The notes beneath the pieces are model-generated. The model was not told where the DNA came from. It saw nothing but the letters and a program-made list of their open reading frames with translations, and searched no databases. A program made the translations under genes and the position numbers. Shown one piece after another: positions 8,605 through 64,000 of a stretch of DNA of 64,000 nt. Origin of the DNA: Butyrivibrio fibrisolvens (GTDB taxonomy: Bacteria; Bacillota; Clostridia; Lachnospirales; Lachnospiraceae). The stretch is taken from assembly GCF_023206215.1 (NCBI RefSeq), contig NZ_CP065800.1, positions 496,001 to 560,000 on the forward strand, given 5' to 3'. Each line of letters starts with the position of its first letter. Position 1 is the first letter of the stretch.

Positions 8605-8883
8605 TTATTTCTTGTTTACAGCGTCCTTAAGTGCCTTACCAGCCTTGAACTTAGGAGCAACTGATGCTGCGATCTTCATTGTAGCACCTGTCTGAGGGTT
8701 TCTGCCCTGTCTTGCTGCTCTCTTAGCTACTTCGAATGTACCGAAGCCAACAAGCTGAACCTTACCCTTCTTCTTAAGCTCTGCTGTAACTGCGTCTGTG
8801 AAAGCCTTAAGAGCCTTCTCAGCGTCCTTCTTAGATAATCCTGCATCTTCTGCAATTGCTGCTACTAATTCTGTCTTGTTCAT
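8605..8883 (-). CDS. hup: DNA-binding protein HU
   Basis: Histone-like nucleoid protein, 92 aa, acting as a dimer. It opens MNKTELVAAIAEDAGLSKKD and has the signature GFGTFEVAKRAARQGRNPQTG, whose proline tips the DNA-bending arm, and a Lys-rich end. AGGAGG lies just before the ATG. A strong vegetative promoter lies 77-105 bp upstream, and a GCGCTATTTTAGCGC palindrome lies in the leader. Confidence 0.98.
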   Translation of the reverse strand: MNKTELVAAIAEDAGLSKKDAEKALKAFTDAVTAELKKKGKVQLVGFGTFEVAKRAARQGRNPQTGATMKIAASVAPKFKAGKALKDAVNKK

Positions 8884-8959
8884 TAGGAAATTCCTCCTCT
8901 AAGATTGTAATGCGCTAAAATAGCGCTTCTTATTACCTGCTTCAAGCGGTATATATTTA

Positions 8960-8988
8960 CTTATATACGTTTTCGCAAAAGCTGTCAA
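8960..8988 (-). promoter_or_regulatory. sigma-A promoter of hup
   Basis: Minus strand: TTGACA (8983-8988), a 17-bp spacer, TATAAG (8960-8965). Perfect -35 and near-consensus -10 fit a highly expressed nucleoid protein. Confidence 0.8.
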
Positions 8989-9127
8989 GGAAAATCCTTA
9001 TTTTAAGCCATTTTTTAGCCTTTTTATTCCAATTTACTCCTAGTTTACTGCGTTTGAACAGATTCTTTTTTTCGTTTTACAGTAATAATCTGTGTTTAAA
9101 GGCGGACTCGATTTATAATAGCCAGAT

Positions 9128-9425
9128 GAAACTTCGCACTTGCCAAACATACGACACTTCTTACGGCTGTACCGATGCGAGTAGTTTATAAAGTCTTTTC
9201 GTGTCTTGAAAGTGTTATAATTCAGGGCATGATATCTGGAGATTTATATTCCAGGGTTCGAAACTCGCTTCGCGGGGGCATGCGAACCCTATGCGGAATA
9301 TGAATCTCCATCTATCACGCTCCTGAATTTTATAACACTTTCAAAAGAACACGAAAAGACTTTATAAACTACCCGCATCGGTACAACCATAAGAAGTGTC
9401 GTATGTTTGGCAAGTGCGAAGTTTC
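9128..9425. repeat. giant imperfect palindrome, long-hairpin family, copy 1
   Basis: About 298 bp whose right half is the reverse complement of the left at roughly 90% identity. From the outside in, both arms carry GAAACTTCGCACTTGCCAAA, CATACGACACTTCTTA, TACCGATGCG, AGTTTATAAAGTCTTTTCG, TTGAAAGTGTTAT, AATTCAGG and a GATAGATGGAGATT box. The centre holds AACTCGCTTCGCG. It fills most of the 600-bp gap between the PEGA gene and hup and encodes no protein. The same layout recurs at 53631-53923 and starts again at the right edge of the window. Confidence 0.9.
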
Positions 9426-9480
9426 TGTATCTAATATATACACAACTTCCAAAAATCAGACTTTTACAGCCTCAAACTCC

Positions 9481-11823
9481 CTATTCTGTAGTTCCTCCTG
9501 TATTGGAGGAAGAAGGCGCAGTGGAAGATGATGTAGTAGCATTATCACTTCCTTCCTGAACTTCACTTTGATCAGCGCCTCCGGAGTCATCAACCTGACC
9601 TTGTTCGTCGGGGATGCTCTGATTATCTTCTTGATCTTCGTCGCCGCCATTTTGATCTGAGTTCTGATCTGTATTCTCTGTATTATCTCCCTGATTTTGG
9701 TCTTGACCGTTCTGATCTCCGCTACTTGACAAGCTGCCTTCATCAGATCCGTCCGTCGAAGCCGTATCTGATGCATCAGTACTTGCTGCTGACGATCCTT
9801 CGTCGGATGATGCCTCTGTAGATGCACTGCTGGCACTGTCAGAAGATTTGCTGCTTCCGGAATCAGGATCAGCAGATTCCTCTTTTTCCTGTCTGTCTGC
9901 ATAGTAGTGGCTGTCTACGCCGTCATAGGTACTTACGCTAAGCTCTTCTTCGAGGGTCTTATATCCTTCAAGCTCAAGCCTTATAGTAGATGACCCTTGA
10001 CTGTGAGCATCAGGCAGCTTTGCAAATCTGATAGCTTCATCGCCTTCTATCACGCCCATAGGCTCGTCGTCTACGAACACTTCGGTCCCTGCAAGAGCAT
10101 ATATATCTACATACCTTTCAAGTTCAGGGAATTCATACAGTTTGTCCTTCTTATTGCCGTCTACGTATATCGAATAGCTCTTGGTAGCATATCCATCACG
10201 GGTGAAGGTTATAGTATGGCTTCCCTTGACTTTATCAAAAGAGCAGGGAACTTCTCCAACTTCCTCGCCGTCCACATATAGATTAGCTCCAACCGGTGCA
10301 TCCACATAAACGCCATATCCTTCTATCAAGGTTCCGTCCGGTTCTTCTGTACTTGCAGTGCTGGCAGATGCTGCAGGATCTTTTTTCAGTGCTTCAAAGG
10401 CGTACTCTTTATCTTTTTTCTCAGAATCAATACTAATAGTATAGTCCTTGGTGAGATACCCGTCTTTTTTCAGCCTTATTACATGATCTCCTGTTATCTT
10501 GGTAAAAGAACATGGAGATATTCCGATGTATTTGCCGTCGTCTCCTTTTTTGTTCTTGTCAGGATCAAGATATACTTCTACGTCAGAAGGGGCTGTTATC
10601 CTAATGTAATAGCCGCTTATAAGAGTTCCGTCCTTAACTGTTGTAGCGGTTGTAGATGCCTTGGCTGTATTAACTGTCTTGGCCTTGGACTTACTTGAAG
10701 CATTGTCACTGCTCTTATCAGACTCCTTGGATTTATCTTCGGTCGTTGTATTGGCAGTGGATGAGTCGCTTACAGAAGTCGCTGTAGTACTCTCATCTTC
10801 CTTCTCATCTTCCTTCTCATAATCTTCATCGACAAGAAGTGTTATCTCAACTTCTGCCTTGGAAGAGCCTACATGAAGATACTCCGAACAAGGAAGATAC
10901 CCTTCTGCCGTCGCTTCGATCTTGTGAGTTCCATAGGCTAGTTCTATAGGCCACGACGGGTTAACCTCTTCGCCGTCTATATAGAGTCTTGCTTCCTGAG
11001 GGATGATATTGAAGGTGACAAGACCGAAGTTATATTCGATCTCTATCTGACTGGTATCCACTATGGTCTCTTTATCCCTGTCAACCGTTATAGTAGTCTC
11101 ATAATCTACGCCGTTACCTGTCAAAAAGAGCTTGTAGGTTCCTTCAGGAACGCTCACAAGCATTCCGTCAGTTACGCGGTATATATTCTTATCACCAATC
11201 TCCAGATAGGATCCGGAGATGTCAGCATCTCCTACCATGTTGGATGAAAGGGATACATATCCGTGACCTTGCTTTACTTCTACACAGTAGATTTCTGTAT
11301 CTATTCCGGTTACTTTGATATTGTCACCGGGGAGCACATCTGCGATGCGGCCTGACCTGCCATCTATCAGGATCAGTGTCTTATCAGTTATATGATAGTA
11401 ACTGCTTCCTATCTGAGCTGTCTCAGTGCCTGCCTGAAGGTCATAACCGTATGACTTGTCGATAGTAAAAGCATCACCATTTATATCAAGACTGTTAAGG
11501 TGCCTTGAACCTGACAAAAAGGTGATATTGGCAATCTCTCCGACTTCAAGGAGCTGCGCCGAGAGTGCTCTTCCATATTCGCTATATATCAAAGTGGTAT
11601 TGTCATAAGAAAGGGTATAATCACGTCCTGTATCATGATTACGGAACGTGATGGTATTGTTATCTGTATCGATTGATTTGATGATGGCAGTATCTGACGA
11701 ATCATACTTGCCTACAAGAGAGACTGTGTTAACAGTCTGTGCATACGAGATGTCCGGGAAAAAAGTCAGCGCTACAACAAAAGCTATAATGGTTACGAAT
11801 AAACTTCTAACATATCTACGCAT
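9481..11823 (-). CDS. secreted PEGA-repeat protein with acidic/Ser-rich tail
   Basis: 780 aa. The signal peptide ends near DISYAQ. The first ~270 residues are unassigned beta-rich sequence. Four PEGA-type repeats follow, each with a YVDGEEVG-like strand and an SxTITFxRDGYxTKxYxI-like strand (e.g. LYIDGEEVNPSWP, ANLYVDGEEVGEVPCSF, VFVDDEPMGV). Long Ser/Thr/Glu/Asp/Lys-rich linkers separate them, and the last ~150 residues are Ser/Asp/Gln/Asn-rich and probably disordered. PEGA domains are usually extracytoplasmic and often linked to surface proteins; function unknown. Translation could begin earlier, but the ATG at 11821-11823 has AAAGGGGAG 6 bp upstream. Confidence 0.85.
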   Translation of the reverse strand: MRRYVRSLFVTIIAFVVALTFFPDISYAQTVNTVSLVGKYDSSDTAIIKSIDTDNNTITFRNHDTGRDYTLSYDNTTLIYSEYGRALSAQLLEVGEIANITFLSGSRHLNSLDINGDAFTIDKSYGYDLQAGTETAQIGSSYYHITDKTLILIDGRSGRIADVLPGDNIKVTGIDTEIYCVEVKQGHGYVSLSSNMVGDADISGSYLEIGDKNIYRVTDGMLVSVPEGTYKLFLTGNGVDYETTITVDRDKETIVDTSQIEIEYNFGLVTFNIIPQEARLYIDGEEVNPSWPIELAYGTHKIEATAEGYLPCSEYLHVGSSKAEVEITLLVDEDYEKEDEKEDESTTATSVSDSSTANTTTEDKSKESDKSSDNASSKSKAKTVNTAKASTTATTVKDGTLISGYYIRITAPSDVEVYLDPDKNKKGDDGKYIGISPCSFTKITGDHVIRLKKDGYLTKDYTISIDSEKKDKEYAFEALKKDPAASASTASTEEPDGTLIEGYGVYVDAPVGANLYVDGEEVGEVPCSFDKVKGSHTITFTRDGYATKSYSIYVDGNKKDKLYEFPELERYVDIYALAGTEVFVDDEPMGVIEGDEAIRFAKLPDAHSQGSSTIRLELEGYKTLEEELSVSTYDGVDSHYYADRQEKEESADPDSGSSKSSDSASSASTEASSDEGSSAASTDASDTASTDGSDEGSLSSSGDQNGQDQNQGDNTENTDQNSDQNGGDEDQEDNQSIPDEQGQVDDSGGADQSEVQEGSDNATTSSSTAPSSSNTGGTTE

Positions 11824-12092: not shown

Positions 12093-12119
12093 CGGTGCCA
12101 AAAGTTACTTTTGGCACCG
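12093..12119. repeat. GGTGNCAAAAG palindrome, variant copy
   Basis: Perfect 27-bp hairpin, CGGTGCCAAAAG - TTA - CTTTTGGCACCG, just after the cca stop codon. Relatives at 18312-18344, 52621-52664 and 60583-60622 have T for C at the variable base. It may terminate cca transcripts, but on the minus strand no T-run follows. Confidence 0.8.
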
Positions 12120-15136: not shown

Positions 15137-15455
15137 AAAAAAACCTTCAGTCCATGTTTAATTAAAAACAGGGACCAAAGGTTATAAATTCATCTTCGGC
15201 GGTACCACCCTATTTAAATCTGCATGTGATAAAAACGCAGATTTCTCTCAACTATCCCTTAACGCGGGAAACGCTGTGTTTATGTTAATGAAGTAGGAAT
15301 ATAAACTATCATCAAAAAATTCAAGCTTATATCACAAAATCAACTATCACACAGAACTCCAAGGCAGGTTCACGGACATCACTGTAAAGACTTCGCACCA
15401 GATAAGTCTTCTCTCTGAGACAGGACAGTTCCATTACTATTCCTCTTCAACGTTA
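15137..15455 (-). promoter_or_regulatory. T-box riboswitch (tRNA-Pro), proS leader
   Basis: A 5' leader that senses uncharged tRNA. Minus-strand order: stem I opening AACGTTGAAGAGGAATAG, an AGAGAG bulge region, then GTGAACCTGCCTTGGAG with specifier CCT (Pro) at 15366-15368. Further on is the T-box core AGGGTGGTACCGCCGAAG (about 15194-15211), which pairs with the tRNA 3' end, and a terminator stem AACCTTTGGTCCCTG / CATGGACTGAAGGTT with a T-run. The specifier agrees with the downstream gene. Confidence 0.93.
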
Positions 15456-15461
15456 CGTTTG

Positions 15462-18135: not shown

Positions 18136-18311
18136 TTTGTACTCCAATCATAAACAATAATAAATCTATACATGAATACTATAAATCAGAATATATGAAC
18201 TGCGTTCATCTCGCAATTCTACATAACATATTATACACAAGCATTCAAGTTAAAAAAACTGATTTTTCTCTAAATTAAATCCCTTAAATTGATATGACGT
18301 AAGGGTCAAAA

Positions 18312-18344
18312 GGTGTCAAAAGGAACTTTTGACACCTACCTCAT
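18312..18344. repeat. GGTGTCAAAAG palindrome, copy 1
   Basis: Hairpin GGTGTCAAAAG - GAA - CTTTTGACACC (18312-18336). With its flank TACCTCAT it matches, in reverse complement, 52621-52653 over 33 bp with one mismatch. Confidence 0.85.
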
Positions 18345-21527: not shown

Positions 21528-21704
21528 AAAAAAACTGCGACCCTGTGACGGATGCACATACCCTGCAAAGTAACAAGGCACCTTACAACACATGAGATGA
21601 AATGCTTAGTGCTGCTTCGTTCCCGACCTGACACGTTTCGCAAAGTCCCATTGCATAAGACCCGGCTATTCACAAAATATATGCACCCTTCACAGAGCCG
21701 CAAT
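21528..21704 (-). ncRNA. ffs: signal recognition particle RNA (4.5S-like, extended)
   Basis: Minus strand carries the helix-8 hallmark GTCAGGTCGGGAACGAAGCA at 21613-21632, which binds Ffh. Terminal helix: GCGGCTCTGTGA (21690-21701) pairs with TCACAGGGTCGC (21537-21548). A T-run follows. The promoter places the 5' end near 21704, giving about 170 nt: longer than the ~100-nt small form, shorter than the ~270-nt form, and with no Alu-domain sequence that I can see. Confidence 0.92.
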
Positions 21705-31833: not shown

Positions 31834-32192
31834 TTTACCTTCTTTCCGGCCTCACAGCGCGAATGATGCGCCTGGACCTGTGGTGATGCGGTTTATAATT
31901 ATAATGTCCGCATCTTATAATTATCGATTATATATCACGCTATAGTATATCCTTTAAAGACAAAATATGCAATTCTTGAAATGAGGAGATTGGCATGAAG
32001 AATGGCGTAAGGACGGGCAATAATAAATAACTTCCCACTTGGATGGTTCAGTATCACCAAATACTTTGCCGTCCAAGTGGGAAGTCTGTAAAAAATATCC
32101 CTTACCTCATAGGAAATAGATTCGGCAAGGGATATTTTTTATCTCCCTGACTTTCGCAAAACCATTCACTATTTTTGAAGTATAATTAACCT
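31834..32192. other. divergent intergenic region, map / radical SAM gene
   Basis: 359 bp. It holds a 56-bp palindrome (32030-32085) and a second stem AAAAAATATCCCTT / AAGGGATATTTTTT (32090-32140), then a TATAAT at 32181-32186. Both flanking genes start here and point away, so these stems cannot be their terminators; they could end an unannotated small transcript or be mobile repeats. Confidence 0.55.
32030..32085. repeat. 56-bp palindrome, miniature of the long-hairpin family
   Basis: Ends ACTTCCCACTTGGAYGG and complement. The terminal AACTTCCCACTTG and an inner CAGTATC(A/C)CCAAA match the arms of the 293-bp palindrome at 53631-53923, as if the central ~240 bp had been deleted. Confidence 0.8.
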
Positions 32193-52433: not shown

Positions 52434-52766
52434 AACCTCTGTTCCTTTCATCTCTAAAAGCCAAATCGTTTGTAAGATATTAAAGATTATAATGCATAAT
52501 TATACTTTTAACAACCCCTACATGTATATTTATTTACAAAATATGCAAAAGATCACACCTTTGTTTTTCTCATGATCGATCAATTATAAAAACCTGATTT
52601 TACGCCGTGTATAATATATTATGAGGTAGGTGTCAAAAGTTACTTTTGACACCATATGACTACCGGATTGTTCCGTTTCTTTGAAACTCAAACTATCCAA
52701 TCTATAAAAGCTGTAACCTCGAAATCTATTACTATGACCAAAATCACATAAATATAGGAGATTTTT
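52434..52766. other. divergent intergenic region, argF / Rgg-type gene
   Basis: 333 bp, AT-rich. Holds a TATAAT at about 52609 and the GGTGTCAAAAG palindrome copy 2. No ARG-box or other operator is obvious by eye. Confidence 0.5.
52621..52664. repeat. GGTGTCAAAAG palindrome, copy 2
   Basis: Perfect 25-bp hairpin GGTGTCAAAAG - TTA - CTTTTGACACC (52629-52653) flanked by ATGAGGTA and ATATGACTAC. The left part matches 18312-18344 in complement; the ATGACTAC flank is shared with 60583-60622. Confidence 0.85.
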
Positions 52767-53624: not shown

Positions 53625-53956
53625 TTACTCGAACTTCCCACTTGGACGAACTAGCATCCCAAAAGCCTTTACAGGGATAGGCAGTATATAAATTATTTCC
53701 ACACTTTTTAATCATTTTATAGAATTCGTGAGCGTGATAGATGGAGATTTTTATTCTGCCAGGGGTCTGCATGTCTGAGCGCAGCGAGTTTCAGACCCCT
53801 GAATAAAAAACTACAGATATCATGCCATGAATTCATAAAATGATTAACAGTGTGGAAATGATTTATATACTGCCTATCCCTGTAAAGACTTTGGGGATAC
53901 TGGTTCGTTCAAGTGGGAAGTTCAATTAAATATCTGAAGCAGCCAAAGGCAGTGGA
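53625..53956. other. intergenic region filled by a giant palindrome
   Basis: 332 bp between two convergent genes, almost all of it palindrome copy 2. No separate terminator is visible; the hairpin itself may end both transcripts. Confidence 0.7.
53631..53923. repeat. giant imperfect palindrome, long-hairpin family, copy 2
   Basis: 293 bp. Ends GAACTTCCCACTTG(A/G)ACGAAC and complement. Inside: CATCCCCAAAGNCTTTACAGG-like, GGGATAGGCAGTATATAAAT, TTTCCACACT, TCATTTTAT(A/G)GAATTC, then GAGCGTGATAGATGGAGATT and TATTC. The loop region holds GGGGTCTG / CAGACCCC around GAGCGCAGCGAGTTT. Arm identity is high and the inner boxes match copy 1. Confidence 0.9.
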
Positions 53957-63791: not shown

Positions 63792-63911
63792 ATGACTCCG
63801 TTTTCATGGATACAGTTTATTTCAAAATACTATTTTATTAATATAATATCTTATTATCTCAAACTGCGCACACATATTATGCTGCTTACGTGTTGAAGAT
63901 TCCTGAGGGCT

Positions 63912-64000
63912 GGCAGTTTATAAATGATTTTTGTGTCTTAAAAAGAATTTCCAACTTCAAGAGCTTGATAGATGAAATAATATATTCCGCAAGGGATCCA
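63912..64000. repeat. giant palindrome family, copy 3, left half only
   Basis: Begins CAGTTTATAAATGATTTTTGTGTCTT and runs through GAGCTTGATAGATGAAATAA and TATTCCGCAAGGG before the window ends. The AGTTTATAAA box, the GAGC(G/T)TGATAGATG box and the TATTCC motif match copies 1 and 2 in the same order and spacing. Confidence 0.7.

Follow-up and report, generated by a model that had tools for sequence, protein, structure and literature searches.

A family of long hairpin elements in Butyrivibrio with MITE-like ends and arms that diverge yet remain paired

Hairpins in the window and in the genus

The stretch of DNA analysed here, referred to as the window, comprises 64,000 nt of the Butyrivibrio fibrisolvens genome G000 (C1:496001-560000; the genome is 4.45 Mb in two contigs). 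Table 1 lists the giant palindromes present in it, together with a 57-bp palindrome that is read as an internal-deletion derivative. An earlier note on this DNA had described 9128-9425 (copy 1) as a long self-complementary hairpin, and this holds: the outer arms 9128-9204 and 9349-9425 are 96% complementary over 77 nt, and folding of 9120-9435 predicts a single hairpin at -204.6 kcal/mol. The further copies proposed at 53631-53923 and 63912-64000 are both real hairpins as well. Copy 2 (53631-53923) has 84-nt arms that are 89% complementary; copy 3 is a full hairpin as seen in locus L041, with a core (C1:559956-560061, window 63956 onward) that crosses the window edge, and it has an ortholog, L192, in the related genome G061. 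The boxes shared by the copies are not due to low-complexity chance, as blastn places elsewhere in the genome reach E 7e-98. The claim that the outer arms differ between copies stands in part: another group ends AACTTCCCACTTGG, but at least 25 places in G000 (at least 24 after contig-end overlap is taken into account) match copy 1 over about its full length in blastn.

Table 1. Giant palindromes and related features of the 64,000-nt window.
Feature	Position	Strand	Basis or remark
Giant palindrome copy 1 (sub-family A, full length)	9128..9425	-	loop strand is the minus strand
Copy 1 left terminal repeat AAACTTCGCACTTGCCAA	9129..9146	+	motif scan
Copy 1 right terminal repeat, reverse complement of left	9407..9424	-	sequence
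Copy 1 conserved core	9221..9327	-	core alignment and covariance model
Giant palindrome copy 2 (sub-family B, ends AACTTCCCACTTG)	53632..53922	+	core 53725-53831
Giant palindrome copy 3, left part, without AAACTT end	63898..64000	+	continues past the window in L041
57-bp palindrome, end motif AACTTCCCACTTG as in copy 2	32029..32085		palindrome and motif scans

An Rfam search of the whole window returned only a T-box leader (15167-15459) and a small SRP RNA (21569-21667), on the minus strand. No Rfam family covers the hairpins at gathering score, and a permissive search of 8800-9800 gave three matches, all far under their gathering scores. Other repeats are also found in the window. A small dispersed palindrome, AGGTGTCAAAAG..CTTTTGACACC with variants, is present in three copies (12093-12118, 18311-18336, and 52628-52653), and a 50-bp inverted repeat pair (11932-11981/48719-48768, 98% matching) contains ACTCGCTTTGCTCGCGACATG, is hairpin-loop-like, and has relatives in stretches of L063, L065, and L069. 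Between 39392 and 47680, two near-identical copies of about 2 kb enclose a gene for a chemotaxis receptor and one of the AAA-ATPase/PD-(D/E)XK kind. The first copy has an intact DDE_Tnp_1 transposase ORF, and 48 bp ahead of it are found again after the second.

The genome of this rumen bacterium contains dozens of copies of the hairpin element. Comparison of copy 1 with its own genome by blastn gave at least 74 matches (40 of 154 first-look candidates scored), which correspond to fewer than 74 places since each palindrome is matched twice where it lies, once per strand. For the analyses below, a loose regular expression yielded 213 items, 133 of which were kept at -39 kcal/mol or lower, and removal of two IS loci left 131 hairpins (75 in G000, 24 in G061, 6 in G102, and 26 in other relatives) with a median span of 290 and an average of about 111 pairs; this set misses at least two true G000 copies (L007 and L014:1593) that were removed by de-duplication. 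Identical elements were observed at both ends of contig C1, within about 11 kb of each (L003/L004 and L058/L092), so the contig ends seem to overlap, and one of each duplicate was retained among the 75 copies.

The earlier note had named a covariance-model search as a check on a dispersed family. A model of the 107-nt core built on 44 copies (threshold E 0.01) was run against 79 genus genomes and matched 12 of them with varying copy number: at least 49 matches each in G000 and G061, 22 in G102, 14 in G072, 10 in G033, 9 in G016, 6 in G035, 3 in G080, 2 each in G034 and G023, and 1 each in G014 and G079. Beyond these genomes, the B. fibrisolvens D1 plasmid pNP243 has four places matching the element, the best of them between two annotated genes and without a feature of its own in the PLSDB gene table, which is incomplete. 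An exact-pattern scan of genome contigs gave 17 stretches by pattern match only, 12 in other taxa and 5 in Butyrivibrio-named records; four of the latter are in one MAG, and the fifth, in MC2013, has no partner arm. Phage records gave no match to the element, and phage carriage was rejected on this ground. No publication on the element was found among the open-access papers searched.

Terminal repeats, target duplications, and an IS4-family counterpart

Full-length copies are about 300 bp long with ends AAACTTCSCACTTG, and their span from AACTT to AAGTT is 286-295 bp. When one mismatch was allowed, the end motif AACTTNNCACTTG occurred 158 and 181 times on the two strands, compared with 30 and 29 for the reversed control. 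Sub-families A and B both end in this motif, as do short forms (about 40-175 bp) that carry it at either end and are read as internal deletions. Exact flanking direct repeats of at least 7 bp were found at 15 of 34 full-length copies (21 A copies and 13 script-labelled B copies), with lengths of 7-10 bp, mostly 8 or 9. In 300 shuffles with re-paired flanks the mean was 1.51 and the maximum 5, offsets of 0-5 bases on each side being allowed in data and shuffles alike. The other 19 copies, including copies 1 and 2, have no direct repeat of at least 7 bp.

The elements are located in AT-rich intergenic DNA. The comparison of syntenic loci that the earlier note had proposed was carried out for copy 1, the one copy examined, which is missing from the matching site in both G061 and G102. 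The flanks are about 85% identical up to window position 9055 (G102) or 9092 (G061) and similarity returns in the gene that follows. Between these points, 378 bp are unaligned in G102 vs. 759 in the window, and 289 in G061 vs. 673. The core model, positive on the window's own locus, found no match at these two loci. Copy number, direct repeats, and the empty site of copy 1 support the earlier proposal of a dispersed, mobile noncoding family. Four second-clade genomes, G072, G033, G016, and G035, hold 6-14 hairpins with 0, 0, 1, and 1 end-motif matches, respectively (one mismatch allowed). With almost no end motif, these hairpins would need another or an older origin.

Through the motif scan we also reached a 1.64-kb IS in G028 and G007 with 18-bp ends ACTCAAACTTCCCACTTG. 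Some B elements, L072:4381 for example, carry exactly this end, and the end of A elements differs from it at one base. The hairpin has no gene, and no sequence shared with the IS was noticed besides the ends. The 475-aa protein of the IS is an IS4-family transposase (565 bits vs. a cut-off of 250 for NF049925, IS4_4), and homologous IS with related ends are present in G089 and G067. Relatives of the protein were detected in 12 of 79 genomes at E 1e-10, G000 and G061 not among them, and the NF049925 family model found no transposase in G000 and one weak fragment in G061. A resident G000 transposase with hairpin ends was accordingly rejected within family NF049925; 10 PF01609 matches exist in G000 besides. 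The core model gave no hairpin match in the IS carriers G028 and G007. With no hairpin match in the IS carriers and no NF049925 transposase in G000, mobilisation in trans is a hypothesis. Since two other relatives have an IS4-family transposase gene that lies between such ends, we regard the hairpins as MITE-like elements, in G000 apparently without a resident IS4_4 transposase.

How well does the element agree with known repeat classes? It is noncoding, non-autonomous, and present in many copies, and it shows target-site duplication (in 15 of 34 copies) and empty-site polymorphism (copy 1). Its terminal inverted repeats match those of an autonomous IS in sub-families A and B only, and that IS resides in other species. 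At 286-295 bp it exceeds the MITE size of less than about 200 bp given in part of PMC2229807. REP palindrome units are 20-40 bp according to an excerpt of PMC3733652, and the median hairpin span of 290 confirms that these are not REP sequences, as the earlier note had said. Its further statement that they are no ordinary MITEs has to be divided: the ends, the target duplications, and the end shared with the IS4 family are MITE features, and the element is unusual in its size, its pairing over the full length, and its conserved core. On balance the element behaves as a MITE in most respects tested, with atypical length and full-length pairing and a mobilisation that we infer. For sub-families A and B (about 300 bp), the probable agent of spread is an IS4-like DDE transposase that acts at the terminal repeat, and insertion would make target duplications, mostly of 8-9 bp, in AT-rich intergenic DNA. 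The ends, the duplications, and one empty site were observed; the shared ends suggest the role of the transposase.

Bacterial MITEs such as QMITE2 of Coxiella, as described in part of PMC10969869, are likewise noncoding, with terminal inverted repeats, AT-rich intergenic sites, 7-9 bp direct repeats, and a stable predicted transcript fold. In contrast to these, the hairpin element pairs over nearly all of its 300 bp or so and not at the ends alone, and its arms evolve in concert. Correia/NEMIS, ERIC, RUP, and YPAL, compared here by description only, are also small intergenic mobile repeats whose transcripts have long stem-loops; they are given as shorter than 200 bp, and passages of PMC2229807 and PMC10969869 describe no arm rewriting. 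The same passages report that Correia transcripts are cut by RNase III and that ERIC effects on mRNA are orientation-dependent.

Concerted change of the two arms

The earlier note had suggested that compensating change or arm replacement preserves the stem. Among 21 family-A copies with 123 consensus pairs, we counted 23 one-sided and 21 two-sided private stem changes; 19 of the two-sided changes still pair, and about 0.84 two-sided changes would be expected if the sides were independent. Two divergent copies, L002 and copy 1, account for ten of the 21, and leaving them out gives 20 one-sided and 11 two-sided changes. Orthologous loci gave a similar picture in three cases: L041/L192 (95 pairs) have 12 two-sided changes, 11 of them still paired, and 4 one-sided, with 2.0 two-sided expected; L200/L206 (103 pairs) have 20 two-sided, 17 of them paired, and 14 one-sided, with 7.1 expected; and L159/L221 (83 pairs) have 10 two-sided and 7 one-sided, with 2.2 expected. 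In the orthologs L218/L225, which are 82% identical, one-sided changes prevail, with 11 against 3 two-sided ones. Close pairs, namely L148/L149 at two loci, L149/L159, and L170/L226, show 1-7 changes on one side and 0-1 on both. Mostly one-sided changes, as in these, are also what slow compensation predicts.

The most direct example is L165 in G000 and its ortholog L196 in G061, with flanks that are 98.6% and 97.2% identical and a hairpin centre that is inverted relative to them. Here ATAGATGG has changed to ATATCCGG opposite CCGGATAT, and a GA/AG internal loop is now fully paired. In a tally of 101 clade-1 copies this loop is fully paired in several ways: the 5' arm matches the 3' arm in six related copies and L196, L033:2169 and L209 show the converse match of the 3' arm to the 5' arm, and L033:1240 has changes in both.

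Template switching between inverted repeats yields arm homogenisation and spacer inversion (excerpt of PMC8604942), and multi-base concerted changes and loop inversions in RNA stems have been read as template switching (Monttinen and Loytynoja, 2022; passages of PMC8794818). Those cases are rRNA and microRNA stems; here the stems have about 110-120 pairs and belong to many copies of one mobile element. The two-sided changes, the inverted centre, and the rewritten arm point to replication template switching, and the private changes, orthologs, L165/L196, and GA/AG loop states together support the earlier suggestion. Template switching is the better fit in most, although not all, comparisons. 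Nearly the whole element is one hairpin, and its arms are probably kept complementary mainly by replication template switching, one arm being recopied from the other and the centre now and then inverted. The mutation pattern argues for this process, and the inversion itself was observed at one orthologous locus.

Alternatively, homologous recombination or gene conversion, acting either from arm to arm or among the copies of the genome, could maintain the pairing in place of template switching. The L165/L196 centre inversion could come from inverted-arm recombination, and the many near-identical copies are possible donors. However, the corrected tracts are as small as two to four bases (GA/AG site), and usual recombination tracts are longer than that, so we consider this explanation unlikely.

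The mode of evolution of the stem is the interesting part of the element; its unusual trait is that the stem arms diverge yet remain paired. Replication template switching, if it is the main process, bears on the question of how long stems stay paired without broken intermediates. Its role in maintaining short RNA stems was called 'less clear' in a passage of the 2022 study (PMC8794818). With 75 copies in one genome and 131 in the genus, orthologs and recent insertions among them, the process is measurable.

The conserved core and the genomic position

The 107-nt core has a one-base bulge, the GA/AG internal loop, an asymmetric bulge, and a loop ending GCGAGTTT. The aligned sub-families keep TTCANGAGC/GCCNTGAA with the one-base bulge, plus the asymmetric bulge after ATTC. 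The loop reads TGTYTGAGC...GCGAGTTT with exceptions, copy 1 having CCCCCGCG there, and bulges and loop are kept in the distant clade too. On the loop strand the core has 135 G.T vs. 19 A.C, and 23 vs. 117 when the opposite strand is folded; as the wobble bias reverses, it is not a folding artefact. By column, 17 favour G.U and 0 favour A.C in clade 1 (opposite-strand control, 1 to 15), and the ratio is 8 to 4 in clade 2 (control, 4 to 7), with no clear bias. These column counts used 99 of 105 clade-1 rows and 25 of 26 clade-2 rows (93 and 25 unique), with four rows and the cores outside the length range left out. For the arms, G.T to A.C was 262 to 160 on the loop strand and 345 to 181 on the opposite strand. 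Clade-1 arms have little strand bias (225 to 113 on the loop strand, 236 to 158 on the other), and clade-2 arms lean to wobble on the opposite strand (G.T pairs, 109 to 37). The clade-1 arms give no support for RNA-level selection across the whole stem.

Covariation with strand-specific wobble in the clade-1 core indicates that one core strand acts like a molecule that folds, although a bias of this sign would be expected of single-strand DNA too. Bulges, loop, and wobble of the clade-1 core hint at a folded RNA or single strand, and the wobble makes an RNA reading a possible one. Selection on the folding of one strand probably maintains the core, presumably for protein recognition or as RNA. 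We propose tentatively that the core is a folded RNA or ssDNA signal inside a self-repairing palindrome carrier, in which replication template switching rewrites the arms and more than 100 pairs are kept with almost no sequence selection; such a signal in the 107-nt core might conceivably be undescribed. Taking ends, arms, and core jointly, these hairpins are probably a non-autonomous MITE-like family of Butyrivibrio, spread in the manner of IS4 elements, with arms maintained via template switching and a core under fold selection.

Another explanation of the pairing would be that a dsRNA or sRNA gene within the element yields an RNA hairpin under compensatory selection of the ordinary kind, with no special mutation process. 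The strand-dependent clade-1 core columns and the conserved bulges and loop agree with it, the loop strand folds better than the opposite strand in 90 of 131 copies, and the L218/L225 changes are mostly one-sided. However, the clade-1 arms are nearly strand-neutral, two-sided private changes among related copies are far above chance, the multi-base rewrite and centre inversion at L165/L196 are not stepwise, and the hairpins stay below the Rfam gathering score, the permissive matches far below. We judge this explanation improbable for the stem and prefer template switching there.

The genomic position was analysed with script-called ORFs, not with an annotation. No ORF of at least 200 codons spans any of the 75 G000 copies. 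Of 100 copies flanked by ORFs, one to either side, 75 have the closer gene at the 3' side of the loop strand (45/61 in G000, 14/17 in G061, and 16/22 in other genomes apart from G102), and all 10 G000 copy pairs less than 1.5 kb apart are divergent, e.g., L017, L026, L036, L155, L180, and L184. A composite hairpin-linker-hairpin unit was rejected, since the linkers differ and the apparent homology is that of the neighbouring hairpin. Maintenance through a function for the host, such as one in chromosome structure or at mRNA 3' ends, would agree with these position data but is very unlikely, as presence differs between close species, no orientation class of flanking genes is preferred among the 75 G000 copies (20, 16, 16, and 14; 9 undetermined), and copies are evenly divided between the strands in all chromosome quarters but the last, which has 9:3. 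The analysis gave no evidence for the nucleoid mark that the earlier note had considered.

Loss of SbcD was rejected as the cause of palindrome tolerance. In a search of 25 genomes, a homologue scored above the cut-off in G000, G061, G102, and G072; among the other carriers it was above the cut-off in G080 and G014, below it in G033 and G035, and none was found in G016. G000 thus keeps dozens of near-palindromes of about 290 bp despite an SbcD homologue above the cut-off.
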